A stretch of DNA of 64,000 nt, taken from positions 868,001 to 932,000 of the forward strand of contig NZ_MLQQ01000001.1 in the NCBI RefSeq assembly GCF_001865995.1, given 5' to 3'. The notes beneath the pieces were generated by a model, which worked only from the letters and a program-made list of their open reading frames with translations, ran no database searches and had not been told where the DNA came from. Of this stretch, positions 1 to 54,736 are shown one piece after another. The first letter of the stretch is position 1, and every line of letters begins with the position of its first letter. The DNA comes from Anaerobacillus arseniciselenatis. GTDB lineage: Bacteria > Bacillota > Bacilli > Bacillales > Anaerobacillaceae. The position numbers and the translations under genes are program-made.

Positions 1-1611
1 GGACGTTGTGGCCAGTGAATCGTGCCGAGCTAATCGTTTAAGTGCCTTGGGTACAACATCTTGCTTGGTTAGGCGCGTAATATAAACGTGCCGCAATTGA
101 TGGGGGCCACTCGCTTCTTTCCAGTCTGCAATCAAGGTATAGATTCGGTACTTTAAAGATAAGAGGGATCTTAGTGGTTGTTCCTTTTTTCCAAACACTA
201 ACCCGTTCTCTTGCTTTTGTACCTCCTGTAAGAGATCCATTACCCGTGGAGGTAGTGGTAAGGAGTGCACCTTTCCTCCCTTTGCTGTAAACTTTACATC
301 CTGAAGGCTCCAATTAATGTTTTCCCAACGTAATTTCGCCAGTTCACATGATCGAAACCCAAGATAGAGCATAAACCCGAAGGCAAGTTTATCTAGTTGT
401 GGCGCGTCCGAATATTGATCAATAGCAGCAAAGAACTTTTCGATCTCCGCATCCGTTGGCATATACCGAGATTGATAGTCATCCCCCTCGATATTTCGTA
501 TGCCTCTTGTAATATCGCTTTTCAAAAACCTCATATGATAGAGGGTACTAAAGACCGTTTTGATATTTTTGAAATGTTTCATAGAACCATTTTCTGCAAA
601 CCGGCCGCTTTGGACCCCCTTGATGAGATAGTTTTTATACGTCTTTAAGTGTTCTTGCGTGAACAAAGTAAAGGGAACTTTTTCGATAGGATAAGCACTA
701 AAGTCATTTAGAACATTGCAGGACCATCGTAAGTAACGATGCAGATCATATCGGTACTTATCTAACCGCTCAGGTGTTGTTCCCTGCCGCTTTTTATACA
801 TCAGAAACGATTGCACGGCTGGCGGCAGCACCACCTCTATCCGTTCTTTCGGTGTATACGTTAAAGAGGATTCGGTAAAGGGATTCATTTGTTTGTAAAA
901 TAAAGCAAAGTTTTGGTAATAAAATTGACTCGTCATGACCTCTGCATAGAGTTCCGGATTCAAAAAGTCTTCTCGTCCAAGTTCGGATGGTTTTTTACGA
1001 GTCGCCTTACTGACCATTGACTCAAATTCAGTAAACCGTAAAATGAGTTGGAATACCGATTTATAATTGAGCTTTTTCGACCGCTTTACTAAAAACTGTT
1101 GAATCGGTTTGACCTCTAGCTCACTGATCAGATTGTCAATGAACCACTGCTTTAATCCCTTCTCCCCTAAGGGAATCACGGCCTTTTGATGAGAGGTTTG
1201 AAATAAGCTTTCCATAATGGAGATCAACTCTTTCTGCGTAAATTTATCTCCATTATGCGCAAGCATGCTTGATTTTAAACCTAGTTCCACCGAATTTTTT
1301 GTCAGATAACTTCCGGACCATGTACTTAAGTTCTCTTCTCCAGTTCCAGAAATATACTTCTTCAAAAAGCCTTCTACACTGCTTATCCCATCAAATTCCG
1401 AAACGGTATCTTCTTCTTTCTCAACGGATTGTTTTTCTTCCATATCCACACCATCCTGTTCAGAAATGTCATTTGGAGAAGCACCAGAAAAATCATTTTC
1501 AGAAACAGTCAAATTACCTTCCGAAGAATGATCATCTGAGTTGCTTCCTTGATGTGCTTCTTCAAAAGTAAAATCAAATAAAGATAGCTGCATTGGATCT
1601 TGGGTTTGCAT
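1..1611 (-). CDS. Tyrosine recombinase (phage integrase family), C-terminus cut by window edge
   Basis: An open frame of 537 codons without a stop runs from an ATG at 1611 off the left edge, with AAGGGGG as ribosome binding site six bases upstream. The N-terminal ~110 residues are acidic and low in complexity. The C-terminal third carries the recombinase core: YLGFRSCEL (catalytic Arg, about residue 420), a beta-hairpin with GGK followed by HSLPLP, HQLRH (about residue 505), and ARHDS in place of the usual LGH motif. The nucleophilic Tyr is expected a few residues beyond the edge. More than 537 residues is longer than phage integrases of about 400 and nearer to transposon-type recombinases such as Tn554 TnpB. 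Family membership is clear; the element type is inference. Confidence 0.85.
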   Translation of the reverse strand, partial: MQTQDPMQLSLFDFTFEEAHQGSNSDDHSSEGNLTVSENDFSGASPNDISEQDGVDMEEKQSVEKEEDTVSEFDGISSVEGFLKKYISGTGEENLSTWSGSYLTKNSVELGLKSSMLAHNGDKFTQKELISIMESLFQTSHQKAVIPLGEKGLKQWFIDNLISELEVKPIQQFLVKRSKKLNYKSVFQLILRFTEFESMVSKATRKKPSELGREDFLNPELYAEVMTSQFYYQNFALFYKQMNPFTESSLTYTPKERIEVVLPPAVQSFLMYKKRQGTTPERLDKYRYDLHRYLRWSCNVLNDFSAYPIEKVPFTLFTQEHLKTYKNYLIKGVQSGRFAENGSMKHFKNIKTVFSTLYHMRFLKSDITRGIRNIEGDDYQSRYMPTDAEIEKFFAAIDQYSDAPQLDKLAFGFMLYLGFRSCELAKLRWENINWSLQDVKFTAKGGKVHSLPLPPRVMDLLQEVQKQENGLVFGKKEQPLRSLLSLKYRIYTLIADWKEASGPHQLRHVYITRLTKQDVVPKALKRLARHDSLATTS

Positions 1612-1687
1612 AAAAAATCCCCCTTACATATTTTTTTCAAAACTTAAAACGCAAATCTATTTTCTAGTAGCATAAAGAAACAAAAAA

Positions 1688-1753
1688 AGCACTGCCCTTA
1701 TATCTGTAGAAGACACACCTATGGTGTACTTCTGCAGATATAGAGGCAGTGCT
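1688..1753. repeat. Long near-perfect inverted repeat upstream of the recombinase
   Basis: The arm starting AGCACTGCC at 1688 pairs with the arm ending GGCAGTGCT at 1753 over about 30 bp with few mismatches and a tiny central loop (ACACC/GGTGT at the tip). No long T run follows on either strand, so it is not a classic terminator. It lies 77 bp upstream of the recombinase start and could be a regulatory hairpin, a recombination site or a short palindromic repeat. The palindrome is seen directly; its role is unknown. Confidence 0.7.
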
Positions 1754-2032
1754 TCTGCTCTAAATCTATTTAAAAATAGACTATTAAATTATATTACTAA
1801 GCTTTCAATAACTTTCTTGAACTGCTTATGATTTAAATCTATCACAAAAAAAGTAGCTTATCAAACATAAGTCAAAAATTTTTTAAGAGAAACATTTTTG
1901 GTTAAGAAATAGGATAATCTCCAATCTTTAAAAGAAAAGTTTCAATATATTTTTATTAGTAATAACGCAGTAAACATGTTATCAATTCGATTCATTGTTT
2001 TCAACAAAAATAATCAAACCGCAATTTAGCGC

Positions 2033-2062
2033 TTGACAATTCAATATATATCATTTTATGAT
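2033..2062 (+). promoter_or_regulatory. Sigma-A promoter for the first leader/HTH cassette
   Basis: TTGACA at 2033-2038 and TATGAT at 2057-2062 are separated by 18 bp. Transcription would start near 2069, about 30 bases before the structured leader. The match to the SigA consensus is good and it is correctly oriented for the gene at 2243. Confidence 0.7.
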
Positions 2063-2100
2063 GTTTAACATAATCAAATTAAATAAAATCAATTGGGTCA

Positions 2101-2219
2101 ACCCCACAGATTGGATCAGGAAGGACCTGCCAATCCAAGTATAAGATTACTTCAGTGTGATCTTATTATCTTAGGATGCAGTCTGCCTTTCTTTCCATAT
2201 CTGTGGGGTTTTTATTTTT
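2101..2219 (+). ncRNA. Structured leader RNA, copy 1 (terminator-closed multi-stem)
   Basis: CCCCACAGAT (2102-2111) pairs with ATCTGTGGGG (2199-2208), which is followed by a T run, so the closing stem doubles as an intrinsic terminator. Inside are a GATTGG/CCAATC hairpin extended by CAGG/CCTG, and a second hairpin ATAAGAT/ATCTTAT. GATTGG overlaps the closing-stem arm, so the two pairings are mutually exclusive, as in an attenuator. The ribosome binding site of the HTH gene follows within 20 bases. The same architecture recurs at 2561-2680. I do not recognise it as a named RNA family. Confidence 0.6.
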
Positions 2220-2242
2220 GATTTAACAGGAGGTAATGAAAG

Positions 2243-2470
2243 TTGAAAAAAACAGAAAAGTACATCCCTTGGGAATCTCTACCGGTTTTTTTGACAGCAC
2301 AGCAAGTGTGCGAAATCCTGGAGATGTCCAGAAGAAGGGTTTATGAGTTATTTAAAATTCATGTTGATCATGGTGGTATTCCTACATTTCAAATCGGAGC
2401 AACAATAAGAGTAGACAAAAGGGACTTTAAACAATGGAATGATGCGGTAAAAGGTAACAACTCTAGATAA
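2243..2470 (+). CDS. Small excisionase-like helix-turn-helix protein, copy 1
   Basis: This 75-residue protein starts with TTG at 2243, nine bases after AGGAGG. An ATG at 2236 is out of frame and too close to the ribosome binding site. The sequence LTAQQVCEILEMSRRRVYELF is a MerR/excisionase-type winged-helix turn (HTH_17 style), followed by GGIPTFQIGATIRVDKRDF, the wing typical of recombination directionality factors. It is paralogous along its full length to the product at 2707-2934. Being next to a tyrosine integrase and behind a terminator-type leader RNA suggests a regulated Xis or a small DNA-binding regulator of the island. Confidence 0.8.
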   Translation: MKKTEKYIPWESLPVFLTAQQVCEILEMSRRRVYELFKIHVDHGGIPTFQIGATIRVDKRDFKQWNDAVKGNNSR

Positions 2471-2560
2471 GTAAAAATTTTTATGTACCTATGTTCGCCA
2501 TTCAATAATTAATAAGTTAACATGGAAACAAGAAAGAATAAAATCAACCGGGTTAAACAA

Positions 2561-2680
2561 ACCCCACAGATTGGAATGAGGAAGCACCCATCCAGTCAAG
2601 AAATAAGATGGTTAATTTTCTATTACACCACCTTGTTGTCTTGGAATGCGTGTGTCTCCTATTACATCTGTGGGGTTTTT
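2561..2680 (+). ncRNA. Structured leader RNA, copy 2
   Basis: This is a second copy of the leader at 2101. CCCCACAGAT (2562-2571) pairs with ATCTGTGGGG (2666-2675) before TTTTT. The internal stem is GATTGGA/TCCAGTC, so an A-U pair of copy 1 is replaced by a U-G wobble with pairing kept. A TCTTGGAATGC segment matches TCTTAGGATGC of copy 1. The loop sequences have otherwise drifted, so the retained stems argue for selection on RNA structure. It directly precedes the AGGAGG of the second HTH gene. Confidence 0.6.
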
Positions 2681-2706
2681 CTTTTAACCTAACAGGAGGT
2701 AATTTT

Positions 2707-2934
2707 ATGAAGGAAACAAAAAGATACACAACTTGGGAATCCCTACCGGATACTTTGACAGCACAACAAATTAGCGAATTCCTTGGAATAGCTAGAAAAA
2801 CAGTTTACGAGTTATTTAAAGTTCCTGTTGATCAAGGTGGAATTCCTAACTATGAAATTGGTAATTCCAAAAGGGTTGAAAAGACTGATTTGAAACTATG
2901 GATAAAGCGATTGAAAGATAAAAAATCAGCATAA
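2707..2934 (+). CDS. Small excisionase-like helix-turn-helix protein, copy 2
   Basis: The start is ATG 2707, seven bases after ACAGGAGGT. An in-frame start 99 bases earlier would fall inside the leader hairpin and is rejected. The product is 75 residues, the same length as its paralogue at 2243: both begin with a short Lys-rich stretch, then TWESLP/PWESLP, an HTH around LTAQQI.EFLGIARKTVYELF, and a GGIPNYEIG wing. It lies 106 bp upstream of integrase 1 on the same strand, the usual place of an excisionase. Duplication of the leader plus gene cassette suggests two diverged regulators. Confidence 0.8.
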   Translation: MKETKRYTTWESLPDTLTAQQISEFLGIARKTVYELFKVPVDQGGIPNYEIGNSKRVEKTDLKLWIKRLKDKKSA

Positions 2935-2963
2935 TGGTTGATGCAAACAAATGTAATTGGAAA

Positions 2964-2990
2964 AGGCTCTAAAAAAAGTTTTTTGAGCCT
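2964..2990 (+). terminator. Hairpin between HTH2 and integrase 1
   Basis: AGGCTC and GAGCCT bracket complementary A and T runs, giving a stable hairpin 30 bp after the HTH stop. The following CTTCC is T-poor, so termination may be partial. Confidence 0.45.
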
Positions 2991-3040
2991 CTTCCTACCT
3001 TTGTTCATAAATAAACTTGAAAGCGAGGTAATCAATAGGT

Positions 3041-4267
3041 ATGAAAGGTTATTATAAAAGAAGGAATTGTGAGTGTGATGACCCTAAAAAATGTTCTTGT
3101 GGAAAAACATGGACATACTGGGTAGACATTGGACCCGACCCGAAAACTGGAGAAAGACGACAAATATCTAAGGGCGGTTTTAAAACAAAGAAAGATGCAG
3201 AAGATGCTGTAGCAGCGTTAATAACTGATGTGAAACAAGGTACTTTTATCAAGGAGTCAAAGATTTTATTTAAGGACTTTGCTGAGCAATGGTTGCCTAT
3301 GTACATTGACCGAACTTGTCCTAAACCAGGAACCATTCGGCTTCGAAAATATGGAATAAAAAAATTGCTCCCCTACCTTGCTCACATAAAGCTAAAAAAT
3401 GTTTCAGAGGAAATGTTCCAAGAAGCATTAGATGATTTAAAGGCTAATAATTTGGCCAAAAGTACACTGGAGGGCATTCTTGCAACGGGTAAAATGATTT
3501 TTGATATGGCCGTCCATAAGAAACTGATAAGAGAAGATCCGACAAAGAAGGTCTATATAAAAAAGGATCCGAAAGTAATCAATGAAACAGATGATGAGAA
3601 GAATCAGGATGAGGATCTTCCAAATTACTTTGAAAAAGACGAACTCAAAGTCTTTTTGGATGCAGCTAAGAAATATGGATTGTTTATGGATGTTCTCATA
3701 TTCACTCTGTTAGCGTATACAGGGATGCGGGTAGGTGAGTTAGTTGTACTTAAATGGAAAGATATTGATTTCACAAAGCGAACTGTCCGCATTAACAAAA
3801 CGTACTATAACGAATATAACAATATCGCTAAATATGAATTAGTACTACCTAAAACAGAGAAATCCAAACGAAAAATTGTGGTATCAAACCTTGTTGTTGA
3901 AATGTTAAAGAAATATAAAGAAGAACAAGAAACAATCATTGCTAGATTAGGGGATTCATACAATAATAAGGGATTTATTTTTACAAATGTTAAAAGCCAT
4001 CAAGGCCTCCCTATCTTAACAAAGTTAGTGGAAAATAGGATGACAAGATTACTTAAATTAGCCAATTTAAATACCAAACTTTCCCCTCACAGTTTACGTC
4101 ATACACACACTTCACTACTTGCAGCAGCTGGAGTAGAACTCGAGGACATTAAAGATCGCTTAGGCCACTTTGATGATGCAATAACCAGGAAGATATACCT
4201 TCATGTAACAGATCCTGTGAAGAAAGAAGCATCTGATAAATTTGATAACTTCATGGAAAGCGCTTAG
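3041..4267 (+). CDS. Tyrosine integrase 1 with Cys-rich N-terminus
   Basis: This 408-residue site-specific recombinase starts with ATG 3041 behind GCGAGGT. Residues 8-24 have Cys in a C-x-C-x5-C-x-C pattern, a probable small zinc-binding knuckle preceding the arm-type DNA-binding domain (WTYWVDIGPDPKTGERRQ). A SAM-like core-binding domain spans roughly residues 75-175. The catalytic domain shows TGMRVGEL (Arg ~230), the Lys hairpin near PKTEKSKRKI, HSLRHTH (His350, Arg353), LGH (376) and KIYLHV (Tyr386), so all active residues are present. It is related to ICE and phage integrases of Firmicutes and paralogous to the integrase at 7686. It presumably moves the island together with the small HTH proteins upstream. 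Confidence 0.92.
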   Translation: MKGYYKRRNCECDDPKKCSCGKTWTYWVDIGPDPKTGERRQISKGGFKTKKDAEDAVAALITDVKQGTFIKESKILFKDFAEQWLPMYIDRTCPKPGTIRLRKYGIKKLLPYLAHIKLKNVSEEMFQEALDDLKANNLAKSTLEGILATGKMIFDMAVHKKLIREDPTKKVYIKKDPKVINETDDEKNQDEDLPNYFEKDELKVFLDAAKKYGLFMDVLIFTLLAYTGMRVGELVVLKWKDIDFTKRTVRINKTYYNEYNNIAKYELVLPKTEKSKRKIVVSNLVVEMLKKYKEEQETIIARLGDSYNNKGFIFTNVKSHQGLPILTKLVENRMTRLLKLANLNTKLSPHSLRHTHTSLLAAAGVELEDIKDRLGHFDDAITRKIYLHVTDPVKKEASDKFDNFMESA

Positions 4268-4284
4268 TAATCAGTCGCAGCAGA

Positions 4285-4331
4285 AGCCAAAATATGAAAA
4301 ATAAATAAAATAATCATATTTTGGCTTTTTC
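4285..4331. terminator. Bidirectional terminator between integrase 1 and the GTPase operon
   Basis: AGCCAAAATATGA (4285-4297) pairs perfectly with TCATATTTTGGCT (4314-4326), followed by TTTTTC on the plus strand and with an A-rich loop. It separates the convergent integrase and GTPase genes. Confidence 0.8.
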
Positions 4332-4355
4332 TAGTATTTAGTTTTAAAAATTTGA

Positions 4356-5414
4356 TTAGTTTAAAACACCTTCACTAACCTCTATTAACGTTGATTCTAT
4401 TTCTTTTTTCCTCTTCTCCTGTTCCAGCATTAACTTTGATCTGAACTTGTTAATAAAAGAAGTTAAGTCTGACTCTACCACCGATTTTCTTTTTCCTATA
4501 AGTATGTCCCTTAAAATAATGTGGAGCTCCTGGTCTTCTTCATATGTTATTGTCAGTTCATCCCCAAATTCAAACTTGAAGTTTTCAGTCTCTAAATTTA
4601 GTTCTTTAGCGAAAATACTATAATTTTTATATGTTTCTTTTAGCTCAATCACAAAATCTCTTGTTTTTTTATTTAAGCGCTTTTTGATAAAAAGTCTGCA
4701 ATCTTCTAAAATTGCATCATAAACATTCTCTTTATTTAAACCTGCGATTGAAAGTTTATCTACATGCTCAGAGTGCAGCGATTTAATAAAATGATTTATT
4801 TCATTTTTAATAATGTTTTCATATCTTGCTGGCAACCTGATAATTAGAGACTCCCAGAAGTTTCTTAATGTTACTTCTTTAATTTCTTCTTTCCCAAACG
4901 GTTTAGTAATTGTACCATTCATCATTTTCTTTTCTTCCGCACAAACAAATACTGTATCAATATCTTTAAAATCACTCAATTCTTTCTTTAGATTTTCGCC
5001 TTCTTCAACGGTTATGTTGTCTGCCTTGGTGAAAATCACCGTTACTTTGTATTTCTCTTCAAGAAATTTGCCAATTATTTTTTTATCAAAGTCTTCCACT
5101 CTGTGTCCCCCGGTTGAAATACAATAGAACACGGAATGGAACCAGCTTTTAGGTGAAGTATCAAGGCTCCGCTTGGATAATTCATCTTCTAACTCATCCA
5201 ACCATTCTTTATCCTTACCTACTTCTAGTCCCCAGGAATCAAATAAAGTTATAGGTAACTGATTGATCTGTATATCTATCGGATGGAACCCTCTCTCAGT
5301 AACTGGTTTCCCCGTTTTCGCTTCTCTGACTTTTTCACCATATAAATAATTAATCAAAGTACTTTTCCCTACACCGGTCTTACCAACTACGACAACATTA
5401 TATTTATAGCTCAA
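4356..5414 (-). CDS. P-loop GTPase, last gene of a three-gene island operon
   Basis: This 352-residue protein shows a complete G domain: G1 GKTGVGKST near residue 11, switch I Thr in VTERG, G3 DSWG near residue 59, and G4 TKAD near residue 130. It belongs to the Era/IRG-like septin-dynamin-type branch. The C-terminal ~150 residues are helical and charged, with no obvious membrane segment. The start is TTG (5414), overlapping the TGA of the upstream GTPase and preceded by AAAGGAAG, so it is translationally coupled. It lies with 5411-6556 and 6590-7324 in one operon flanked by two integrases. The biological role is unknown; a defence or stress function is inference from context. Confidence 0.85.
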   Translation of the reverse strand: MSYKYNVVVVGKTGVGKSTLINYLYGEKVREAKTGKPVTERGFHPIDIQINQLPITLFDSWGLEVGKDKEWLDELEDELSKRSLDTSPKSWFHSVFYCISTGGHRVEDFDKKIIGKFLEEKYKVTVIFTKADNITVEEGENLKKELSDFKDIDTVFVCAEEKKMMNGTITKPFGKEEIKEVTLRNFWESLIIRLPARYENIIKNEINHFIKSLHSEHVDKLSIAGLNKENVYDAILEDCRLFIKKRLNKKTRDFVIELKETYKNYSIFAKELNLETENFKFEFGDELTITYEEDQELHIILRDILIGKRKSVVESDLTSFINKFRSKLMLEQEKRKKEIESTLIEVSEGVLN

Positions 5415-6556
5415 TTGTTTTCTTCCTTTTCTTTATCCATAAATTTTTGTGTTTCTTTTATTACCGCACCCTTAATAATATCAATAAACTCATCGTCGAT
5501 ATTATTTATAAATTGCTCAACATCTTCTATTTCTCCATCAAGCACTTTTTGATTAATTCTATAACATGTTTCAGAGAGTCCAAAACCAATTCCTGCAGTA
5601 ATCGACGCAGCTACCCCGCCTGTAATTAAACCGCCAGCATAAGTTCCAATACCAGGGAAAAATTTAAGCAGTTGTCCAGCAACCCAAACACCACCTTTAG
5701 TAACTAATCCTGGCAGGCCAATCCCTATAGCAAACTCTTTTAATCGCTTATACAGGAAGTTCATTTCGTATACATATATTATTCTTGCAAACAAAGTCGC
5801 CTGATTTGCTAATAGAACCGGTGCATCTGAAAAAGGCACCGGGGTTAAACCTACAAAACCCGCTCCGGAGGTATGCTGAATAATAATGTTCTTTGCCTTT
5901 TTCTTTTTAATATTTAAATTAATTTTTTGTGCAGAAATAAAAGCGAGTTCTAAAGCAGAAGGTAAATTTATAAGGGACCAATCAATCAAGCTATTTAACT
6001 CAAGATAATTTAATGATGAATCTATTGTAGTTTCGTATGTCTGTACTTCTGGCAGTGAATTATGTACTGTACTTCTTAACATATCAAGGTCATCTCTTGA
6101 AACTAAATCACATTTAGTAAATACAACAGCAACAGGGATATTGTTGTCTTTTAGTGTTTTTATTATCCTCTCATCAAAATCCAGAAATCTTGCACTAGTC
6201 GCCTGAATACAATACCATACCAGATGGATACTTTTTTCTGGAATAGACCTGTTTAAAATGGCATATTCAACTATCTCTTTCAAATAGTTCTTTTGTTCTT
6301 CACTCCCGATTTCATATCCTTTTGTGTCAAATAAGACTAACGAAAGATCTTCATCTTCATATGCTTGAGTATTTTTAGTTACCGACCTACCAACACCTGT
6401 GGCAGCCCAATCTTTACCGAAAACAGTATTAATTAAGGAACTTTTCCCAACGCCTGTACCTCCAGTAATTAGTATATTCGGTTTTTCAACGTTAGCCTTT
6501 AATTCCTCATATTCCTCCTGAATTTTTTTAGTTATTTCATCAAATTTCACTTCCAT
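5411..6556 (-). CDS. P-loop GTPase with hydrophobic Gly-rich C-terminal domain
   Basis: This 381-residue protein starts at ATG 6556 behind AAGGAGTG. The G domain has G1 GGTGVGKSS (~residue 32), G3 DTKG (~77) and G4 TKCD (~147). The C-terminal half (~residues 230-345) is rich in Gly and Ala (VGLTPVPFSDAPVLL, FFPGIGTYAGGLITGG), resembling the DUF697/YcjF membrane-associating region found behind TrmE/Era-like GTPases. It would probably insert into or bind membrane. It overlaps the next GTPase by four bases and follows the UPF0174-like gene by 33 bp. Two unlike GTPases in tandem recall immunity-related or dynamin-like pairs, but I cannot assign a named system. Confidence 0.85.
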   Translation of the reverse strand: MEVKFDEITKKIQEEYEELKANVEKPNILITGGTGVGKSSLINTVFGKDWAATGVGRSVTKNTQAYEDEDLSLVLFDTKGYEIGSEEQKNYLKEIVEYAILNRSIPEKSIHLVWYCIQATSARFLDFDERIIKTLKDNNIPVAVVFTKCDLVSRDDLDMLRSTVHNSLPEVQTYETTIDSSLNYLELNSLIDWSLINLPSALELAFISAQKINLNIKKKKAKNIIIQHTSGAGFVGLTPVPFSDAPVLLANQATLFARIIYVYEMNFLYKRLKEFAIGIGLPGLVTKGGVWVAGQLLKFFPGIGTYAGGLITGGVAASITAGIGFGLSETCYRINQKVLDGEIEDVEQFINNIDDEFIDIIKGAVIKETQKFMDKEKEENN

Positions 6557-6589
6557 TTTCTCACTCCTTAGTTATGGGGTTCTTAATAA

Positions 6590-7324
6590 TCAACTCTCTT
6601 CATCAAATACAGCTCTCATATAAGCAACCTGAATAACTGATGGTATAGTTACTCTGTATGCAGGACCTGCCAAATCAACTGCAGTCCATAAGCCCATGAT
6701 AGTCCATCCTACGGGGCCGGCAAATATTCCTAATACTCTTGCAAGTGCAGCATTTCCGCCTAGTGCTATTCCTCTTCCTAATAATTGTTTGGATACTGCA
6801 TTGGCTACAATCATCGCCAATTGATAGGATTTAAATCCTCCAGCTTTAATTGCAGCCTGTATTGCCACTAGTACAGCTTGTTTATTAAAGGTATCCATTT
6901 TTAAATCAAGTTCTTCAATTACCTTTTTTAATTCTTCATTATCCATTTTTTCCAGAGAATCCGTCAGAATTTTCATGAGTAAGTTTCTTTCAATAATTAC
7001 TACATCACTTTTATTGTTAAAATTTACTTTCAATTTTTTACAAACATCAATTAATATTTCTTTATAATAAACACCTTTATTCCCACGTATTACTCTAGCA
7101 ACCCCATTTGATCCATACGTTTGAAGTTCAGCAGCAATCAGATCCCAGTAAGCCTGATGATTTGGAGTATTATCTACATATTTACGCTCCATAGCTAATT
7201 CAGAATTAAATCTCTTTTTACCTTTTTGATTTTTGGTTAAATAATTTACGAGGATCTCTAAATCTTCATTATTACTATACTTTAAAAAGACTAAATCTTT
7301 ATCTTCTCTAAAATTTAACCCCAT
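6590..7324 (-). CDS. UPF0174 / YaaW-like protein with membrane-type C-terminus
   Basis: I take ATG 7324 as the start (244 residues), because AGAAAGG sits nine bases upstream of it while an ATG at 7333 directly abuts that ribosome binding site. The N-terminus (FREDKDLVFLKYSNNEDLEIL) matches the DUF3944 type. The C-terminus from ~residue 165 is Gly/Ala-rich (LGRGIALGGNAALARVLG, FAGPVGW, AGPAYRVTIPSVIQVAYMR), the signature of the UPF0174 family that includes E. coli YaaW. Its function is not established. It is the first gene of the operon with two GTPases, and its hydrophobic tail resembles that of the middle GTPase, which suggests a membrane-linked complex. Confidence 0.8.
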   Translation of the reverse strand: MGLNFREDKDLVFLKYSNNEDLEILVNYLTKNQKGKKRFNSELAMERKYVDNTPNHQAYWDLIAAELQTYGSNGVARVIRGNKGVYYKEILIDVCKKLKVNFNNKSDVVIIERNLLMKILTDSLEKMDNEELKKVIEELDLKMDTFNKQAVLVAIQAAIKAGGFKSYQLAMIVANAVSKQLLGRGIALGGNAALARVLGIFAGPVGWTIMGLWTAVDLAGPAYRVTIPSVIQVAYMRAVFDEES

Positions 7325-7685
7325 TCTTCTCATCCTTTCTGTCTATTTAAAACATTTTTCTCCAATTTTTGCTAATTCTCTATATTAATTTTAACAGATT
7401 ATTTTTCTCTTTTGTTATAACTATTTAGAATAATCAAATTAAAAAATTTAGTGTAACCACATAACCCTCTATATTAATTCTCGGAAAAAATAAAACGTGA
7501 AAAGGGCAAGTGCTTTTTTAATAAACTACTTTTGGTTATGACGATTAATTCAGGACATGGCCAAGGATCTAAATATCATATCGCCTTTCTGCTGTAAAAA
7601 TCTATGTATGAATTTTTTCTTCTTCAAAGGGCATAATGAAATTTTGTAACAGATCATTTTTATGAAAGCGAGGTTATTCAATGAA
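7325..7685. other. Intergenic region between the GTPase operon and integrase 2
   Basis: This divergent, very AT-rich stretch must hold the promoters of the minus-strand GTPase operon and of integrase 2, but I cannot pick a convincing -35/-10 pair for either. The leader CCCCACAG structure seen upstream of the HTH genes is absent here. The AATAATCAAATTAAA segment near 7430 resembles one near 2070. Confidence 0.4.
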
Positions 7686-8900
7686 ATGAAAGGACATATC
7701 TTCAAAAGAGGGTGCACATGCAAAAAGAAGAGAAAATGTACTTGTGGTGCTAAGTGGGCTTTTGTAGTGGATATCGGGACAGACCCCCTTACTGGCAAAA
7801 GAAAACAGAAGACAAAAAGTGGTTTTCGAAACCAAGAGGAAGCTGAAGCCGCTGCGACTACGCTTATTTATGAGTTAAGCCAAGGAACATATGTGGAAGA
7901 AACGGATCAAACCTTTAGTGACTTTGCAAAAGAGTGGCTTCCCATCTACAGTGAGTCGAAAGAGGTAAAGCCAGGAACCATTCGCGTCCGTCTTCATGAA
8001 ATCGGAAAATTGTTACCCTACTTTGCCCAATTAAAATTAAAAGACATCACAAGAAAAATGTACCAAGATGCTCTTAACGATTTAAAGGAACAAGGGTATT
8101 CCGATAGAACCAGAGAGGGGATTAACCAAACAGGAAGAATGATTTTCCGAAAGGCACTAGAGCTAGAGGTAATTAAGAAAGATCCGACGGAGTTTGCTTA
8201 TGTAAAAAGGGACAAGAAAACGATTGAACAGCTTGAGGAAGAGGAAATTCCCAAATACCTTGAAAAGGAAGAGCTTGCATTGTTTTTAAGAACAGCCAAG
8301 AATTATGGGTTAGAACTCGATTACTTGGTGTTCCTTGTTCTTGCCTACACAGGAATTCGTGTTGGAGAATTGGTCGCTCTTAAGTGGAAGGATATTGATT
8401 TTCTTAATCATACCATCAGCATTACGAAAACGTATTATAATCCAAATAATAATACGAGGAACTATCAGTTAGTAACACCAAAAACAAAAAAGTCACGACG
8501 AAAAATTGTTGTTGATGAAGTGATCATTAACGCGCTAAAAGAACACAAAGAAGTGCAAATGAAAGTCATGGAACATTTAGGTAGTGATTACTACAACCAC
8601 GACTTTATCTTTGCCAAAATGGAAAGGCTACATGGCTATCCTATCGTCATTAAGACTGTGCAAAACCGAATGGCACGGTTACTTGCTTTGGCAGATTTAA
8701 ACCAAGAACTAACACCACACAGTTTAAGACATACGCACACGTCCCTTCTTGCCGAGGCTCGTGTGTCACTGGAACAAATCATGGATCGGCTTGGTCATAC
8801 TGATGACCAAATCACAAAAAATGTGTACCTCCATGTGACGCAAGAAATGAAAAAAGAAGCCTCTCAAAAGTTCAGTGAACTTATGAGAAGCCTCCGTTAA
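7686..8900 (+). CDS. Tyrosine integrase 2 with Cys-rich N-terminus
   Basis: The product is 404 residues. ATG 7686 is chosen because GAAAGCGAGG-N12-ATGAAAGG is shared with integrase 1; the in-frame ATG at 7662 would place that ribosome binding site inside the gene. The N-terminus has C-x-C-x5-C-x-C followed by W-x-FVVDIG, then a core-binding domain and a catalytic domain with TGIRVGEL, HSLRHTH (Arg348), LGH and Tyr381 in VYLHV. It is a clear paralogue of the integrase at 3041. It ends 83 bp from the groEL stop codon, so the 3' end of groEL is the probable integration locus. Two intact integrases imply stacked or composite elements. Confidence 0.92.
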   Translation: MKGHIFKRGCTCKKKRKCTCGAKWAFVVDIGTDPLTGKRKQKTKSGFRNQEEAEAAATTLIYELSQGTYVEETDQTFSDFAKEWLPIYSESKEVKPGTIRVRLHEIGKLLPYFAQLKLKDITRKMYQDALNDLKEQGYSDRTREGINQTGRMIFRKALELEVIKKDPTEFAYVKRDKKTIEQLEEEEIPKYLEKEELALFLRTAKNYGLELDYLVFLVLAYTGIRVGELVALKWKDIDFLNHTISITKTYYNPNNNTRNYQLVTPKTKKSRRKIVVDEVIINALKEHKEVQMKVMEHLGSDYYNHDFIFAKMERLHGYPIVIKTVQNRMARLLALADLNQELTPHSLRHTHTSLLAEARVSLEQIMDRLGHTDDQITKNVYLHVTQEMKKEASQKFSELMRSLR

Positions 8901-8911
8901 TTATCCTCAAT

Positions 8912-8931
8912 GTTAGCAAAATGTTAGCAAA
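8912..8931. repeat. Tandem GTTAGCAAA arm-type repeat beside groEL
   Basis: GTTAGCAAA occurs twice (8912-8920, 8923-8931) with an 11 bp period, just after the integrase 2 stop and before groEL. Such short direct repeats next to int are typical of arm-type integrase sites; I infer that one att site is near here. Confidence 0.45.
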
Positions 8932-8983
8932 CCACTCTCACCTTACTAACAAACCCATTCATACCAAGGGTTCAAGGGGCAGT

Positions 8984-10636
<1,653 letters not shown>

Positions 10637-10757
10637 CTAATTTTCTATGTAGTAGGAATGAGTTCCTACGTATTTTAAAGATACTTTCATAGCTTCTTAT
10701 GTGCTTTTCATGTAAAATAGACTTTTAAAACTATTTACATAAAATTTAGAAACTATA

Positions 10758-11042
10758 TTAGTTAACGATCGCTAATACGTCGTTTTCACGAAGGATTAAG
10801 TATTCTTTACCATCAAGTTTAACTTCAGTGCCTGCGTACTTAGAGTAGATAACCTTATCTCCCTCTTTAAGTTCTAATGCTACACGTTCGCCACTCTCTA
10901 AAATGCGGCCAGAACCTACAGCAACTACACGCCCCTCTTGTGGCTTTTCTTGCGCTGAATCCGGAAGTACGATTCCGCTAGCAGTTTTTTCTTCAGTTTC
11001 TACTTGTTCGATCACAATACGATCACCTAATGGCTTTAACAA
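10758..11042 (-). CDS. groES: GroES, 10-kDa co-chaperonin
   Basis: This 94-residue lid of the GroEL chamber contains [11 protein letters not shown], the mobile loop around [13 protein letters not shown] and a C-terminal [11 protein letters not shown] 11042 is the likely start: GGGAGG lies nine bases upstream and the product then begins MLKPLGDRI, as in other bacilli. A TTG at 11051 would touch the ribosome binding site. It is the first gene of the groESL operon. Confidence 0.97.
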
Positions 11043-11080
11043 GGAAAACAACCTCCCTCATTTAACTTATTTTTTAGTTA

Positions 11081-11107
11081 TTAGCACTCAGGTCTTACGA
11101 GTGCTAA
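11081..11107 (-). promoter_or_regulatory. CIRCE operator of groESL (HrcA site)
   Basis: TTAGCACTC-N9-GAGTGCTAA is a perfect match to the CIRCE consensus, placed just downstream of the groES promoter and upstream of the ribosome binding site. HrcA binding here represses groESL until heat shock. Confidence 0.98.
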
Positions 11108-11117
11108 CACAATTATT

Positions 11118-11146
11118 ATGATAATCATTTCAATTCTATTTTGCAA
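11118..11146 (-). promoter_or_regulatory. SigA promoter of groESL
   Basis: On the minus strand TTGCAA (11141-11146) and TATCAT (11118-11123) are 17 bp apart, ending 11 bp before CIRCE, the standard arrangement. Confidence 0.75.
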
Positions 11147-11308
11147 GTATTTTTACTAATTTTTTAGAAAAACTTGGCTTTACCTTCAATTATAGAGATA
11201 ACCTTCATTTTTCTTAAACAATTACAAAATAACGTTAAAAACTAGTGATAGTGAACTTGAAAAATTATCCTTCATTAATTTTGACCTTTTATAGTATATT
11301 TATACGAG

Positions 11309-11420
11309 TGAATTTCATAATTACCTAAATTGAGCCATATCAAACTATATGTAGTTGCGAGCGGTTTAACGCAACTACATATAGTTACTTAATGGCGTTA
11401 ATAATGAATTATGAAATTCA
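11309..11420. repeat. MITE-like palindromic repeat, copy A
   Basis: The 112 bp element is bounded by 14 bp terminal inverted repeats TGAATTTCATAATT/AATTATGAAATTCA, with an inner hairpin (ACTATATGTAGTTGCG ... CGCAACTACATATAGT). It is related to copies at 26696 and 62689, of which it is the most diverged. It holds no coding capacity. It lies between groES and ydiL. Confidence 0.85.
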
Positions 11421-11504
11421 TTATTACAGAGTCGTTTTAAGATTTTTATAATGCTTTTTATCCATAAATTAAAGAGTTTTGTGTTAAAATTATAGAAGTG
11501 ATTT

Positions 11505-11790
11505 TAGTTGGATTGTTGGTTTGTTGGTTTGTGGCTAGTTGGTTAGGACCTTCGCCCAACTTTTCATATTAGATAGTGACGATATGTCGTCAGGCGGGTT
11601 TTGTATGAAAAAGGCGGATGATTTCGTGAACGAGCCTCTGAGATTCGTTAGAAGGTCACAGCGATGAGAAGGAAATCATCCGCCTTTTCCGTATTAGAAA
11701 GAGGTGCTCATGCGGTTACTCGTCGCAAAGCTACATGGAGTAATCTCAAAGCTGTAATCCATGGTGTGATTGGGTCAGTAGCTATCTTAT
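11505..11790. repeat. Composite intergenic repeat upstream of ydiL
   Basis: It begins with GTTGGTTT iterations, then a GACGA/TCGTC hairpin inside CGCC/GGCG, then a strong 14 bp stem AAGGCGGATGATTT (11611-11624) / AAATCATCCGCCTT (11673-11686). The tail (GGTTACTCGTCGCAAAGCT) resembles part of the repeat at 46021. The GTTGGTTT part has a relative in reverse orientation at about 34985-35060. No gene is visible; it could be a palindromic repeat cluster or an untranslated regulatory RNA. Confidence 0.5.
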
Positions 11791-11844
11791 CGAGTTTCTC
11801 AAACAAATTCTTACAATTATAAATTTTAAAAAGGAGTTTTCAAT

Positions 11845-12558
11845 TTGACAAAAAGGTACTGGTTAGTCTTACTAACTTATATTTTAATGCAGTTATCAGC
11901 TATTATCGGTATTCCAATTTTAATGCTAATGGGAATGGATGAAAAGCAAATACCGGGAATTTGGACTTTATTTAGTTTTTCTACTGGTTTAATCATAATT
12001 TTACTTCTGTTAAGACAAGATATGAAAGATCGTCACTTAGTCCGTGACCGCAGTACGAGAAGCGATGCTATTCTATGGGGATTTACTGGTATTTTTATGG
12101 CATTCGCCGCCCAATACTTTGCCGTTCTTATTGAAATGAGTGTTTTTGGAATCGAACCTGGATCTGAAAATACCGAAATGATCGTTGAAATGGCAAAAGC
12201 AACCCCGGCTCTAATTTTAGTCGTAGCAGTCATTGGTCCAATCTTAGAAGAAATTATTTTCCGAATGATTATTTTCGGAAGCCTTTATAAACGTTTCAAC
12301 TTCTGGATTGCCGCCATTTTTAGTTCAGTCATTTTTGCGGCTGTTCATATGGATTTTGAGCATTTACTCGTCTATACATTTATGGGGATCGTCTTTGCTT
12401 TCCTATATGTGAAAACAAAGCGCATTATCGTACCGATCATCGCACACGTTGCCTTAAATAGCTTTGTTATGATCGTTCAAGTTATTTTTGGAGATCAACT
12501 TTTAGAGCTACAAAGAAATTTAGAGGAAATGCAAGGATTTATTGGAGGACTATTTTAA
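11845..12558 (+). CDS. ydiL: CPBP-family intramembrane metalloprotease YdiL
   Basis: This 237-residue multi-spanning membrane protein of the CAAX protease and bacteriocin-processing family begins with TTG 11845 after AAGGAG. It shows the Rce1-type motifs EEIIFR (Glu-Glu-x3-Arg), FAAVHMDFEHL and HVALN, which bind the catalytic metal in the membrane. It is adjacent to ydiK and divergent from groESL, as in B. subtilis. Its natural substrate is not known. Confidence 0.88.
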   Translation: MTKRYWLVLLTYILMQLSAIIGIPILMLMGMDEKQIPGIWTLFSFSTGLIIILLLLRQDMKDRHLVRDRSTRSDAILWGFTGIFMAFAAQYFAVLIEMSVFGIEPGSENTEMIVEMAKATPALILVVAVIGPILEEIIFRMIIFGSLYKRFNFWIAAIFSSVIFAAVHMDFEHLLVYTFMGIVFAFLYVKTKRIIVPIIAHVALNSFVMIVQVIFGDQLLELQRNLEEMQGFIGGLF

Positions 12559-46307: not shown

Positions 46308-47231
46308 TTATTTTTCTATTACCCTTGGATCTAAGGCATCACGTAATCCATCACCAACAAAGTTAAATGATAATACGGTTAGTAAAATCATTACTCCAGG
46401 GAAGGTTGGATACCACCAAGCGGTTCTAAAGATCGTAACACTTTGAGAATATGTCAACATGTTACCCCAAGTAGATGTAGGCGGCTGAACACCTAACCCT
46501 AAGAAACTTAAAGCTGACTCTGCTAAAATAAAACCACCAACAGCAAGTGTTGCTGCTACGATAACAGGTCCCATCGCACTCGGTAAAATTTGTCCGAAAA
46601 TAATTTTCATATTAGACATACCAATCGTTCTGGCTGCCAATACAAATTCCCGTTTCTTTAATGTTAAAAACTCACCACGTACTAGACGCGCCGTCCCTGT
46701 CCAACTTAAAAAGGCAAATACCATAATTAATTTATCAAGACTCGGCTCTAATACTGCAACAAGAGTAATTAATAAGAAAATATTTGGGAATGAAATAATG
46801 ATATCTACTAAACGCATTAAAAATGCATCTACTAATCCACCAAAATAACCTGCAAGCGCTCCAACCGTTGTACCGATTGTTACTGCACCAACCATTGCTA
46901 CAAATCCTACGAATAATGATACTCGTCCACCAAATAATAGACGACTAAAAATATCACGACCTAAGTGATCTGTTCCAAGTAGGAACTCAGCACTCGGTGC
47001 TGCTAAGCGATTTCGTAGGTTTTGAAAATCAGGATCATGCGGCGCAATCCAGGGTGCTAAAAGTGCGCTTCCTACAATAATCGCAAGCATAATTAAACCA
47101 AATACCGCTAACTTATTTTGTAGAAACTTAGCAACGATAATAGATAAGAGCGAACGCTTCTCACCTAACGATTGAACATCATTAAGCTTCGGATTTTGGT
47201 TATTTTGAAGTTGTGCTTCTGATTTCCCCAC
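46308..47231 (-). CDS. Peptide/nickel ABC permease (OppC/DppC type), set 1
   Basis: The 307-residue permease starts with GTG 47231 behind AGGAGG. It has an N-terminal OppC_N segment, six membrane helices, and the EAA-type loop around LAARTIGMSNMKIIFGQILPS. From residue ~25 on it is almost identical to the permease at 52669. It pairs with the permease at 47245. Confidence 0.92.
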   Translation of the reverse strand: MGKSEAQLQNNQNPKLNDVQSLGEKRSLLSIIVAKFLQNKLAVFGLIMLAIIVGSALLAPWIAPHDPDFQNLRNRLAAPSAEFLLGTDHLGRDIFSRLLFGGRVSLFVGFVAMVGAVTIGTTVGALAGYFGGLVDAFLMRLVDIIISFPNIFLLITLVAVLEPSLDKLIMVFAFLSWTGTARLVRGEFLTLKKREFVLAARTIGMSNMKIIFGQILPSAMGPVIVAATLAVGGFILAESALSFLGLGVQPPTSTWGNMLTYSQSVTIFRTAWWYPTFPGVMILLTVLSFNFVGDGLRDALDPRVIEK

Positions 47232-47244
47232 TGTTCGCCACCTC

Positions 47245-48192
47245 CTAATATTCGATCCTTGGATCTAGTACTGCATATAAAATATCTGCTATTAAGTTAC
47301 CAATTACCGTTAATACTGCTCCAAACATTGTAATCGCCATGATTACTGGATAATCCCTTTCAAATGTTGCATCGATAAATAATTTACCAATCCCTGGCCA
47401 ACTAAATAATTGTTCAACAATTACCGATCCACCAATGAATGTCGGTAACATCAAACCGAAAATTGTAATGATTGGAATTAATCCGTTACGTAAACCGTGT
47501 TTATAAATAACTGTACTTTCACGGAAACCTTTAGCACGAGCCGTTCTAATATAATCTTGTTTAACAACTTCTAACATACTTGAACGCGTATAACGAGTGA
47601 GTCCCGCCATATCAGCTGTTGCTAAAACAATTGCCGGTAAAATTAAATGATGAAGCCTATCTAGTAAACTAAAATCTGCACCAAGTGTAGAAACACCACC
47701 AACTGGTGTCCAACCTAATTGAACTGAGAACAACATAATTAGCATTAATCCCAACCAGAAGTTAGGCGTTGCTAGTCCTAAAAACGAGGTCATCGTCACA
47801 CCGTAGTCTAACTTTGAATACTGTTTGGTAGCTGAAAGTACCCCAAATGGTATCGCGACAATTATTGCTAATATAGTTGAGAAAATCATAAGAATTAAAG
47901 TATTAGGTAAACGATCTGCAATCATATCTCTTACAGGTTGTTTCTTTGTAAATGAAGTTCCAAAATCCCCTTTAACCACATTACTCATCCAATTAATATA
48001 TTGAATATGCGGAGGGTCATTTAAACCTAATCTCTCCATTTGTGCTTCACGCGCCTCAACCGAAATGTCTGGATCTAAATCCATAACCGTCGGTTTACCT
48101 GGGGCTGCATACATAATTGCAAAGGAGATAACTGATATTCCAAAAAGAATTGGAATCATCATAATTAGTCGGCGAATAATATAAGTCGTCAT
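47245..48192 (-). CDS. Peptide/nickel ABC permease (OppB/DppB type), set 1
   Basis: This 315-residue integral membrane protein begins MTTYIIRRLIMMIPILFGISV, the typical OppB start, and has the EAA loop TARAKGFRESTVIYKHGLRN. It differs from the set 2 copy (53601) at only a handful of residues. ATG 48192 follows AAAGGAGG. Confidence 0.93.
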   Translation of the reverse strand: MTTYIIRRLIMMIPILFGISVISFAIMYAAPGKPTVMDLDPDISVEAREAQMERLGLNDPPHIQYINWMSNVVKGDFGTSFTKKQPVRDMIADRLPNTLILMIFSTILAIIVAIPFGVLSATKQYSKLDYGVTMTSFLGLATPNFWLGLMLIMLFSVQLGWTPVGGVSTLGADFSLLDRLHHLILPAIVLATADMAGLTRYTRSSMLEVVKQDYIRTARAKGFRESTVIYKHGLRNGLIPIITIFGLMLPTFIGGSVIVEQLFSWPGIGKLFIDATFERDYPVIMAITMFGAVLTVIGNLIADILYAVLDPRIEY

Positions 48193-48272
48193 CTTCTTCC
48201 TCCTTTACTTTCATTAGTTGCAAGGAGTTAGAGGGAATTAATTATTCCCCCTAACCTTTTGCAAATTTTCTA

Positions 48273-49913
48273 TTACTGGTTTAACCACCATTCGTGAACT
48301 TTGTACATGTCAATACGTGGGTGATGTGTAAAACCTTGAACTTCTTTTGATAAAGCTACGAATTGATAAGGGTAGTATAAGAATGTGTATGGTTGCTCTT
48401 CAGCAATGATCGCAAATGCATCACCAAGCATCGCTGCACGTTCAGCTTGATCCATAACTAATGTATTTTCATCAGCAATTCTGTCTACCTCGTCGTTTCG
48501 ATACGCACTTCTGTTTAAACCATTTTCAATTTGGTCAGAATGCCAAATTGCTCTTGGGTTAGGGTCTGTTGCTAATCCCCACGCCATAACTACGCCATCA
48601 AAATCAAAGTTTGGTGGGTTAATTTGATCCAAGAACGCACCCCACTCCATTTGTTCAGGCTTAACTTCAATTCCTACTTCACGAAGGTATTGTTGTGTAA
48701 TAATACCGATATCACGGCGAGTAACGTTACCACTGTTTGAAAGGATAGTAAATGAAAGTCTTTCACCATCTTTTTCAAGGATTCCGTCTGAACCTGGCTC
48801 CCAACCCGCATCAGCTAATAATTGTTTAGCTTTTTCTACATCATACTCAAACTTAGGAACATCATCATTGTATGCCCAGCTTAATGGAGATACTGGTGCA
48901 TGGGCAACTTCAGCATTACCTTCCATAATTGTTTCTACAAGTTCTTGACGGTCAATCGCGTGTGTAATCGCTTGACGAACTCGTTTATCTTCAAATAATG
49001 GGCGGTCTAAGTTCCAACCAAGATAGTCATAACGTAAAGCTAATGTTGAGTGAAGATTTACATGGTCATAAAGTTCAATTGTACCAATTTCAGATGTTGG
49101 TGCTATCATATGGTGAATGTCACCAGTTTCAAGTAATAATACTAATGCATTTGAATCAGAAGCAAATCTAAATGTTACATTGTCAAGGTATGGACGACCT
49201 TCAAAATATTCTTCATTAGCTTCTAATACTAAGTTTTGTCCACTAGTCCAGCTAACAAATTTAAAAGGACCTGTACCAATTGGATTTTGCATATTGAACT
49301 CTCTGTAATCTTCTAAGTCAGCAACAGGGATATCTTCTAATAAATGCTTAGGAAGAATTCCGTAAGTTACTCGTGTAGCAAATGCAGCATCTGGCTCAGC
49401 TAAAGTGAATTTCACTGTATATTCATCTAAAGCTTCTACATTTACTAATGATCTAAAGTCTCCTGCACGTGGGCTTGTTGTGTCTTCATGAATGAAAACG
49501 TTGTAAGTGAAAACAACATCCTCAGCTGTTAACTCAGCGCCATCGTGGAATAAAATACCTTCGTTTAATTCATACGTCCACTCTAAACCATCTTCAGAAA
49601 TTTCTGGTTGAGTTTTTGCAACTAAAGGTTCCATCTCTAAGTTTTCGTTTGTTTGCATAAGTCCAGCAAATACTAAATCAGTAATATCTGCACTCGCTGA
49701 ATCTGTATGGTAAAGCGGATTTAAAATTACAGGCTCACCTGAAGTACCTAAAATCATATTACCACCGTATTGTGGGTCACCTACCGGTTGTTGTTCAGCT
49801 GTATCTTGATCGCCACCTGTTTGATCTGGAGCGTCTGTACCGCCACCACAAGCAACTAAAAATAGAGACAGCATGAAAATCATACTAATTGAAGCAAAAA
49901 TTGTCTTTTTCAA
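48273..49913 (-). CDS. Extracellular solute-binding lipoprotein (family 5), set 1
   Basis: The 546-residue protein has a lipoprotein signal with LFLVAC (Cys lipidated, ~residue 22), an acidic linker and the SBP_bac_5 domain (TYELNEGILFHDGAELTAEDVVFTYN, WNLDRPLFEDKRVRQAITHAIDRQ). It captures peptides or other ligands for the permeases. It is the most diverged component between the sets, so ligand range may differ. Confidence 0.92.
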   Translation of the reverse strand: MKKTIFASISMIFMLSLFLVACGGGTDAPDQTGGDQDTAEQQPVGDPQYGGNMILGTSGEPVILNPLYHTDSASADITDLVFAGLMQTNENLEMEPLVAKTQPEISEDGLEWTYELNEGILFHDGAELTAEDVVFTYNVFIHEDTTSPRAGDFRSLVNVEALDEYTVKFTLAEPDAAFATRVTYGILPKHLLEDIPVADLEDYREFNMQNPIGTGPFKFVSWTSGQNLVLEANEEYFEGRPYLDNVTFRFASDSNALVLLLETGDIHHMIAPTSEIGTIELYDHVNLHSTLALRYDYLGWNLDRPLFEDKRVRQAITHAIDRQELVETIMEGNAEVAHAPVSPLSWAYNDDVPKFEYDVEKAKQLLADAGWEPGSDGILEKDGERLSFTILSNSGNVTRRDIGIITQQYLREVGIEVKPEQMEWGAFLDQINPPNFDFDGVVMAWGLATDPNPRAIWHSDQIENGLNRSAYRNDEVDRIADENTLVMDQAERAAMLGDAFAIIAEEQPYTFLYYPYQFVALSKEVQGFTHHPRIDMYKVHEWWLNQ

Positions 49914-49969
49914 TGGTGTTTCCTCCTAAAGATAAAATAGTTTGTCTTGCTTAGAATGTCACTAAGTGA

Positions 49970-50989
49970 TTAATTATATAAGTGACAGGCAACAAAGTGC
50001 CCAGGTTCTAACTCTTTTAATTCTGGAACTACTTCCTTACAGTGATCCATCGCTTGTGGACAACGCGTATGGAAAACACAGCCTTTTGGCGGATTTGAAG
50101 GACTCGGTACGTCCCCTTTTAAAATAATTCTCTCACGCTTCACTTCACTTGGATGCGATTTCGGAATCGCAGAAAGTAACGCTTGAGTATAAGGGTGTAA
50201 CGGGTTACTATATAACGTCCTCTTATCAGTTACTTCCATCATTCGACCTAAATACATAACACCGATACGGTCAGATATGTGTTTTACTACAGCTAAGTCA
50301 TGAGCAATAAATAAATACGTTAATCCAAACTCTTTCTGTAAATCATTCATAATATTTAATACTTGTGATTGAATCGATACGTCTAGCGCTGAAACTGGTT
50401 CGTCACCAATAATAAGCTTCGGATTTAGTGTTAAAGCACGGGCAATACCAATTCTTTGACGTTGTCCACCTGAGAACTCATGAGGATAACGATCGCGTAA
50501 TTGTGGCATTAAGCCAACACGGTCTAGAAGATGCTCAACACGCTCTTTTCTTTCGGCCTTCGAATATAAATTGTGTACTCGGAACGGCTCTTCCAATATT
50601 GTTCCTACCGTTTTTCTTGGGTTTAACGATGAAAAAGGATCTTGGAATACCATTTGAATATCTTTACGATAAGGCTTGAGCTGCTTTTCTTTTAAACCAG
50701 ATAAATCTTGTCCATCAAAAATAATTTCTCCTTCTGTTGGTTCGTATAGACGAATAATCGTTCTACCTGTTGTAGATTTTCCACAACCAGACTCCCCAAC
50801 AAGGCCGAAAGTTTCACCTTTTTTAATAAAGAAACTAACGTCATCAACCGCCTTAACGTGCCCAACTGTTTTTTGAAGGATCCCAGCTTTCACCGGGAAA
50901 TATTTTTTTAACCCATTAACTTCTAATAAAATATCAGATTTATCATTTTTTACGCTAGGTTGATTTTTTGCTAACGTTTCAACTGTCAT
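49970..50989 (-). CDS. ABC ATPase (OppF/DppF type), set 1
   Basis: This 339-residue ATPase has Walker [10 protein letters not shown], signature [15 protein letters not shown], Walker [13 protein letters not shown] and the C-terminal oligopeptide-transporter domain with [16 protein letters not shown], a possible 4Fe-4S or metal Cys motif. Its ATG overlaps the OppD stop (TAATG). Confidence 0.94.
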
Positions 50990-51969
50990 TATTCATTACC
51001 CCCTTCATCATGCAAAAAGCAACGTGACTTTCGCCCTGGGTAAATTTCTTTTAATTCCGGTTGCTCTGTTAAGCATTTTTCCATCGCATGTTCGCACCGT
51101 GTGACGAAACGACACCCTTTTGGAAAGTTGTCAGGAGAAGGAACATTACCTCCAATAGATGACAAACGTTCTTTTTCCTCATCAAGTTTCGGAACCGAAC
51201 CTAGTAAACCTTTAGAATAAGGGTGTAGTGGATTGTCAAATAACTCAACAATACCTGTTTCCTCAACTACTTGGCCTCCATACATAACGATTACACGATC
51301 AGCTAATTCAGCAACTACACCTAAATCATGAGTGATCAATATGATCGAAGAGTCGAACTTTTCGGAAAGCTCTTTCATTAACTCTAAAATTTGTGCTTGA
51401 ACCGTTACATCTAAAGCTGTTGTTGGCTCATCAGCAATCAATAGTTTTGGGTCACAGCTCATTGCCATCGCAATCATTACCCTTTGTCTCATACCACCAG
51501 AAAGTCGATGCGGATAGTCATCTAAGATTTCTTCAGCTCGTGCAAAACCAACGATTTTCAATAATTCAACCGCTTTTTGTCTTGCTTCTTTTTTCGACAT
51601 TTTTTTATGGTAAATAAGGACTTCCGTGATTTGCTCACCAATTGTTAGTACAGGGTTTAAAGATGTCATCGGTTCCTGGAAAATCATAGCGATTTCATTC
51701 CCACGGACTTTAAACATTTCATTTTCACTTAATTGCAGTAAATCGGTCCCATCAAAAATAATTTCCCCATCAACCGTTTTACCGCCTGGTTTTGGCACAA
51801 GGCCCATAATTGAAAGTGACGTTATACTTTTACCTGATCCCGACTCACCAACAATGGCTAAAGTTTCACCTTTTTTCACTTCAAAGTCTACTCCGTCAAC
51901 TACTGGTAAGACTTTATTTTTAGAGAAAAAGTGGGTCTTTAAGTTTTTAACTTGTAATAATGTAGACAT
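50989..51969 (-). CDS. ABC ATPase (OppD/DppD type), set 1
   Basis: The 326-residue ATPase has Walker A GESGSGKS, signature LSGGMRQRVMIAMAM, Walker B LLIADEPTTALD and the C-terminal GCRFVTRCEHAMEKC extension. It is the first gene of operon 1. Confidence 0.94.
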   Translation of the reverse strand: MSTLLQVKNLKTHFFSKNKVLPVVDGVDFEVKKGETLAIVGESGSGKSITSLSIMGLVPKPGGKTVDGEIIFDGTDLLQLSENEMFKVRGNEIAMIFQEPMTSLNPVLTIGEQITEVLIYHKKMSKKEARQKAVELLKIVGFARAEEILDDYPHRLSGGMRQRVMIAMAMSCDPKLLIADEPTTALDVTVQAQILELMKELSEKFDSSIILITHDLGVVAELADRVIVMYGGQVVEETGIVELFDNPLHPYSKGLLGSVPKLDEEKERLSSIGGNVPSPDNFPKGCRFVTRCEHAMEKCLTEQPELKEIYPGRKSRCFLHDEGGNE

Positions 51970-52614: not shown

Positions 52615-52656
52615 AAAAAAAATAGCTTGCCGTATAAAAACGGTAAGCTATTTTTG
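52615..52656 (-). terminator. Terminator of ABC transporter operon 2
   Basis: AATAGCTTGCCGT (52621-52633) pairs with ACGGTAAGCTATT (52640-52652), with T runs on both strands. Confidence 0.9.
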
Positions 52657-52668
52657 TTAATATAATTT

Positions 52669-53589: not shown

Positions 53590-53600
53590 TTCACTACCTC

Positions 53601-54548: not shown

Positions 54549-54736
54549 CTTCTTTACTCCTTCACTTTGGATTTAACAGAAAAACTTGGCTTATCGCCAA
54601 GTTCCTAAGCGAGCGCCTTCGTTTTTCTTATACTTATAAAACCTATAACAAGGTTATATAAAGTTATAGTCTTTAAAAGTATAAGGAATGTAAGGGGGAC
54701 GCTCGCGCCCCCTTAGCTCCTTACATCACTTGAAAA

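Follow-up and report, generated by a model that had tools for sequence, protein, structure and literature searches.

The window analyzed here, a 64,000-nucleotide stretch of DNA from Anaerobacillus arseniciselenatis, carries a three-gene operon bracketed by two tyrosine integrases, with the first gene coding for a protein assigned to the JukA family, which supplies the sensor of the Juk (jumbo phage killer) defense system, and the next two coding for GTPases (hereinafter G1 and G2). On balance, we favor the proposal that this operon provides a Juk-type defense against phages, with JukA serving as the infection sensor and G1 and G2 together replacing JukB as the effector. The original prediction for this locus, an island-borne, nucleotide-driven and possibly anti-phage complex, did not recognize the first protein as the established phage sensor JukA; this identification strengthens what is overall a partly supported claim. 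The features of the locus are:

2243–2470, plus strand: small HTH_17 protein, excisionase-like, of the integration module (HTH_17, 2.7e-8)
2608–2934, plus strand: second, duplicated HTH_17 excisionase-like protein (HTH_17, 1.4e-8)
3041–4267, plus strand: left tyrosine integrase (Phage_integrase, 5.5e-28; Arm-DNA-bind_4 and SAM-like domains)
4279–4332, no strand: AT-rich inverted repeat/terminator between G2 and the left integrase (19-nt arms, 89% complementary)
4356–5414, minus strand: G2, septin/Era-like GTPase of 352 aa, with a C-terminal region predicted to be helical (low confidence)
5411–6556, minus strand: G1, GTPase of 381 aa with a DUF697-like hydrophobic C-terminal region
6590–7324, minus strand: jukA, coding for a UPF0174/YaaW-like protein of 244 aa with DUF3944 and Ubiq_cyt_C_chap domains
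7662–8900, plus strand: right tyrosine integrase (Phage_integrase, 2.5e-27), 83 bp from the groEL stop
8984–10624: groEL, beside the right integrase

All three minus-strand ORFs are intact, with a gap of exactly 33 bp between jukA and G1 and an overlap of exactly 4 bp between the G1 stop and the TTG start codon of G2, just as had been claimed; likewise, both flanking elements are full tyrosine integrases (Pfam E-values of about 1e-28). The start of jukA could be the ATG at 7324 or an in-frame candidate at 7333, and is probably best placed at 7324 because this fits the homologues (e.g., MGLKFRQD in the Bacillus metagenome-assembled genome (MAG) discussed below). The hairpin between G2 and the left integrase has a stem of about 16 bp with a T-run on the plus strand and fold energies of −19.7 kcal/mol (plus strand) and −18.1 kcal/mol (minus strand). 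The bidirectional terminator earlier proposed for this position is only partly borne out: the hairpin is a good terminator on the integrase side, but a weaker one on the operon side, its T-tract there being poor. No RNA element was found by Rfam in positions 1–12000.

The identification of the first gene as jukA is well supported by profile matches: its product hits the PADLOC JukA models PDLC04113 (E = 9.4e-77) and PDLC04111 (E = 1.3e-73), with the former match spanning 239 of 245 positions, i.e., the full-length JukA profile. In Pfam it matches PF13099 (DUF3944; E = 6e-13) and PF03981 (Ubiq_cyt_C_chap; E = 3e-9), and it is about 50% identical to plasmid and phage-plasmid DUF3944 proteins. 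JukA has been reported as a widespread immune sensor targeting the phage-made membrane vesicle, and Juk acts against nucleus-forming jumbo phages, mostly in Gram-negative bacteria; we know of no target phage of Juk in Bacilli. In the vesicle present early in infection by nucleus-forming phages, JukA recognizes early phage proteins and recruits diverse effectors, among them the pore-forming JukB, which acts on the vesicle, and phospholipases (PMC13282480). The present operon lacks JukB, as neither G1 nor G2 matches the PADLOC JukB model, and there is no credible JukB in the available genome, an assembly that is about 80% complete: the best match to PDLC04114 (E = 0.0086, 16 bits) lies on another contig. 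Thus, the operon resembles the classical JukA–JukB system in its full-length JukA match and its mobile setting, but differs in having two GTPases in the effector position and in its Gram-positive host.

JukA is sporadic in Bacilli. In samples of 399 Bacilli genomes and 387 genomes of the same order, it was found in none but the window's own, which is consistent with horizontal gain. The nearest JukA sequences come from a Bacillus MAG (L078), Clostridium tyrobutyricum (L011) and Halalkalibacter (L012), with the JukA loci of the latter two having no GTPase pair. Elsewhere, JukA (DUF3944) genes lie behind a small HTH regulator in Escherichia phage-plasmid-like records and in viral contigs (L004, L006, L010, L091–L094), suggesting that phages themselves carry JukA, perhaps for competition against other phages.

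The Bacillus MAG has this trio in identical order, the first two genes lying about 30 bp apart and the next two overlapping by 4 bp, with protein identities to the window of 57–73% for JukA, 63% for G1 and 53% for G2. As these 3 kb are all that the two loci have in common, their flanks being otherwise unlike, there is a fairly strong indication that the three genes travel as a unit. The identities at the first, second and third codon positions between the two loci (0.70/0.83/0.44 for G1 and 0.63/0.80/0.39 for G2) indicate that both GTPases are under purifying selection. The jukA gene of the MAG is frameshifted in a poly-A tract; the MAG is of low coverage (6.6x for this contig), and an assembly error appears as likely as a real loss. 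The co-occurrence of the three families anticipated by the original prediction is therefore conserved but very rare, with a single independent locus beyond the window.

Both GTPases possess intact G1/G3/G4 motifs, as originally noted: GGTGVGKS/DTKG/TKCD in G1 and GKTGVGKS/DSWG/TKAD in G2. However, their description as dissimilar was misleading, as their G domains are paralogous, with about 32–34% identity and reciprocal E-values of 4e-12 and 6e-18. G1 matches MMR_HSR1 (1.6e-10) followed by DUF697 (1.9e-6), the latter being a borderline assignment with 28.2 bits, just above the cut-off of 27.7, and with 21.5 bits, below it, in the G1 orthologue from the Bacillus MAG. G2 matches Septin (2.3e-11) and MMR_HSR1 (8e-10); its Septin score of 43.9 bits exceeds the cut-off of 26.2, but the best stretch covers residues 4–51 only and Era/Der-type profiles also score. 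Dynamin_N matches G2 below the gathering cut-off (E = 8.6e-5) and is outside the best 25 profiles for G1. A classification of either protein as a dynamin was rejected: at 381 and 352 aa they fall short of the dynamin size (~500 aa or more), and neither matches DLP_helical in Pfam. The Gly/Ala-rich hydrophobic regions previously described at the ends of JukA and G1 do exist as moderate stretches, but they lie within the C-terminal halves and do not form the ends of the proteins; the best 19-residue Kyte–Doolittle means (JukA 1.47, G1 1.52, G2 0.83) do not reach the transmembrane cutoff of 1.6. AlphaFold models of G1 and G2 from two-row alignments have pLDDT values of 40 and 54, too weak for conclusions on their folds.

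In terms of known GTPases, G1 shares with the single DUF697 GTPases (YfjP/YeeP-like) the order of a GTPase domain followed by a DUF697-like hydrophobic tail, but differs from them in being paired with its paralogue G2 and with JukA. The LeoABC dynamin pair likewise comprises two co-operonic GTPases, with weak similarity of the LeoBC G domain to those of G1 (E = 2e-11) and G2 (2e-7), while the size of ~350–380 aa and the missing dynamin helical domain set G1 and G2 apart. With the IRG, GIMAP (AIG1) and septin GTPases they share G-domain profile similarity and a logic of paired GTPases, with no proven relationship past the G domain.

JukA is found beside other GTPases in several settings. Two MAGs, one from Bacilli (L044 3163–7465) and one from Fibrobacter (L055 6001–10288), have LeoBC and LeoA dynamins right after JukA in genuine Leo operons, a second way of combining JukA with GTPases; these LeoA proteins match DLP_helical at 1e-44. 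At three other loci (L018, L059, L064), JukA directly follows an IRG/AIG1-like GTPase, which either stops a few bases short of it or runs into its start, and a divergent dynamin lies beside JukA on an Acinetobacter plasmid (L007). The adjacency is a pattern of cases and not a statistic: GTPases occur next to JukA in 5/54 instances versus 2/56 for distal genes of the same loci (one-sided Fisher p = 0.20, not significant). Other frequent JukA neighbors are WYL/HTH regulators and M48-type peptidases. P-loop-like matches in proteins of 152–157 aa upstream of JukA (L058, L091–L094) were discounted, as these proteins are probably HTH regulators in which the motif arose by chance.

The G1–G2 pair recurs in four settings and has an existence independent of JukA. 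It forms an adjacent chromosomal pair without JukA in two other Bacilli genera; in 18 genomes of one of these, G2 precedes G1, always adjacent and with the same order and spacing, and the pair is also present in a further genome (G171). In the genus with 18 genomes the pair appears to be a chromosomal resident, and its presence there without JukA points to some JukA-independent role. A core-chromosome location, which the original prediction had set against a defense function, is thus seen in part, for the GTPases alone and in one genus. On small Acinetobacter plasmids and large Klebsiella plasmids, G1 and then G2 come directly before sul2, a sulfonamide-resistance gene (L101 166–1966; L103; L104), the Acinetobacter G1 orthologue being 46% identical to that of the window. 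In full-length BLAST searches, the G1 of the window finds G1s first and its G2 finds G2s first, as expected of an old, long-standing pair, though the G-domain tree is weakly resolved. No relatives of G1 or G2 were found in viral contigs scanned with single sequences or alignments, which suggests that they are not common phage cargo in the contigs scanned.

By analogy with bacterial dynamin-like proteins, we posit that JukA might sense a phage-associated membrane stage and there switch on the G1–G2 pair. G1 would dock on the membrane via its DUF697-like hydrophobic region, and GTP would drive the paired G domains to assemble into a G1–G2 complex that might remodel, rupture or seal the phage-associated or host membrane, thereby stopping the infection. 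Animal cells use IRG and GBP GTPases against pathogen vacuoles. Bacterial dynamin-like proteins usually act as operon-encoded pairs (PMC6104087, PMC4159319), and the Campylobacter pair must assemble to hydrolyze GTP and bind lipid (PMC6104087). DynA of B. subtilis is a bacterial membrane GTPase that protects against phage and reduces its spread (PMC8844932), but it is one large fused dynamin, which delays lysis and comes without JukA. A bolder and tentative extension of our proposal is that the operon typifies a new class of Juk immunity, wherein JukA triggers a heteromeric membrane-remodeling GTPase pair as a bacterial counterpart of the sensor-directed attack by IRG, GBP and dynamin GTPases on membranes that enclose pathogens; combinations of JukA with Leo dynamin pairs and with IRG/AIG1-like GTPases would then have arrived independently at a similar logic. 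If the GTPase pair does fill the JukA effector slot, phage-bounded compartments would be a target of GTP-driven membrane machines in bacteria, the range of Juk would take in Gram-positive hosts, and vesicle-enclosed or membrane-associated stages would be predicted for phages of Bacilli.

Set against this are readings that separate the three genes functionally. JukA alone could be the defense gene, with G1–G2 being an independent passenger that merely lies downstream and serves, for example, in membrane maintenance or stress tolerance. Most JukA loci examined have no GTPase neighbor, some JukA proteins protect by themselves (PMC13282480), and G1–G2 occur without JukA on plasmids and in two further genera of Bacilli. 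Nevertheless, the trio shows the tight spacing typical of co-transcription and is, as a whole, the only sequence common to two unrelated loci; hence, we regard this alternative as rather unlikely. We give still less credence to a second alternative, namely that G1–G2 are a real but non-immune system for septin/IRG-like membrane surveillance, e.g., in envelope-stress repair, with JukA as its chaperone or adaptor rather than a phage sensor. The apparent residence of the pair in 18 genomes of one genus would fit such a role, as would the PF03981 chaperone domain of JukA, a fold family that includes assembly chaperones of cytochrome c oxidoreductase, and the location of the chromosomal JukA-family member STM0010 (YaaW/HtgA position) near dnaK in Salmonella; the mobile-island setting, the scattered occurrence of JukA in Bacilli and its established part in immunity speak against it.

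The operon might also be a decayed or inactive island relic, as the sole other copy of the trio has a frameshifted JukA and the trio is very rare; given the three open frames, the intact motifs and the codon-position bias reflecting selection, we consider this highly improbable. We accordingly retain the Juk-type system with a GTPase-pair effector as the preferred reading.

Regarding the insertion site, a sister genome of the genus (G001) has an integrase of like architecture and a like HTH protein at the same groEL 3′ site, where the cargo downstream of groEL consists of SspB–SspC–SspD phosphorothioation-type defense genes (L177 48–5152); this supports, without proving, a defense-island setting for the operon. 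No clear att repeat could be delimited, just a weak 32-nt repeat with 75% identity between 690–721 and 9071–9102 within groEL. The HTH_17 gene and its leader are tandemly duplicated (2206–2934), with a 195-nt direct repeat of 73% identity and additional upstream repeats. Farther along the window, positions 46308–60611 hold a duplicated set of oligopeptide ABC-transporter genes coding for permeases, ATPases and binding proteins, along with a third binding protein.
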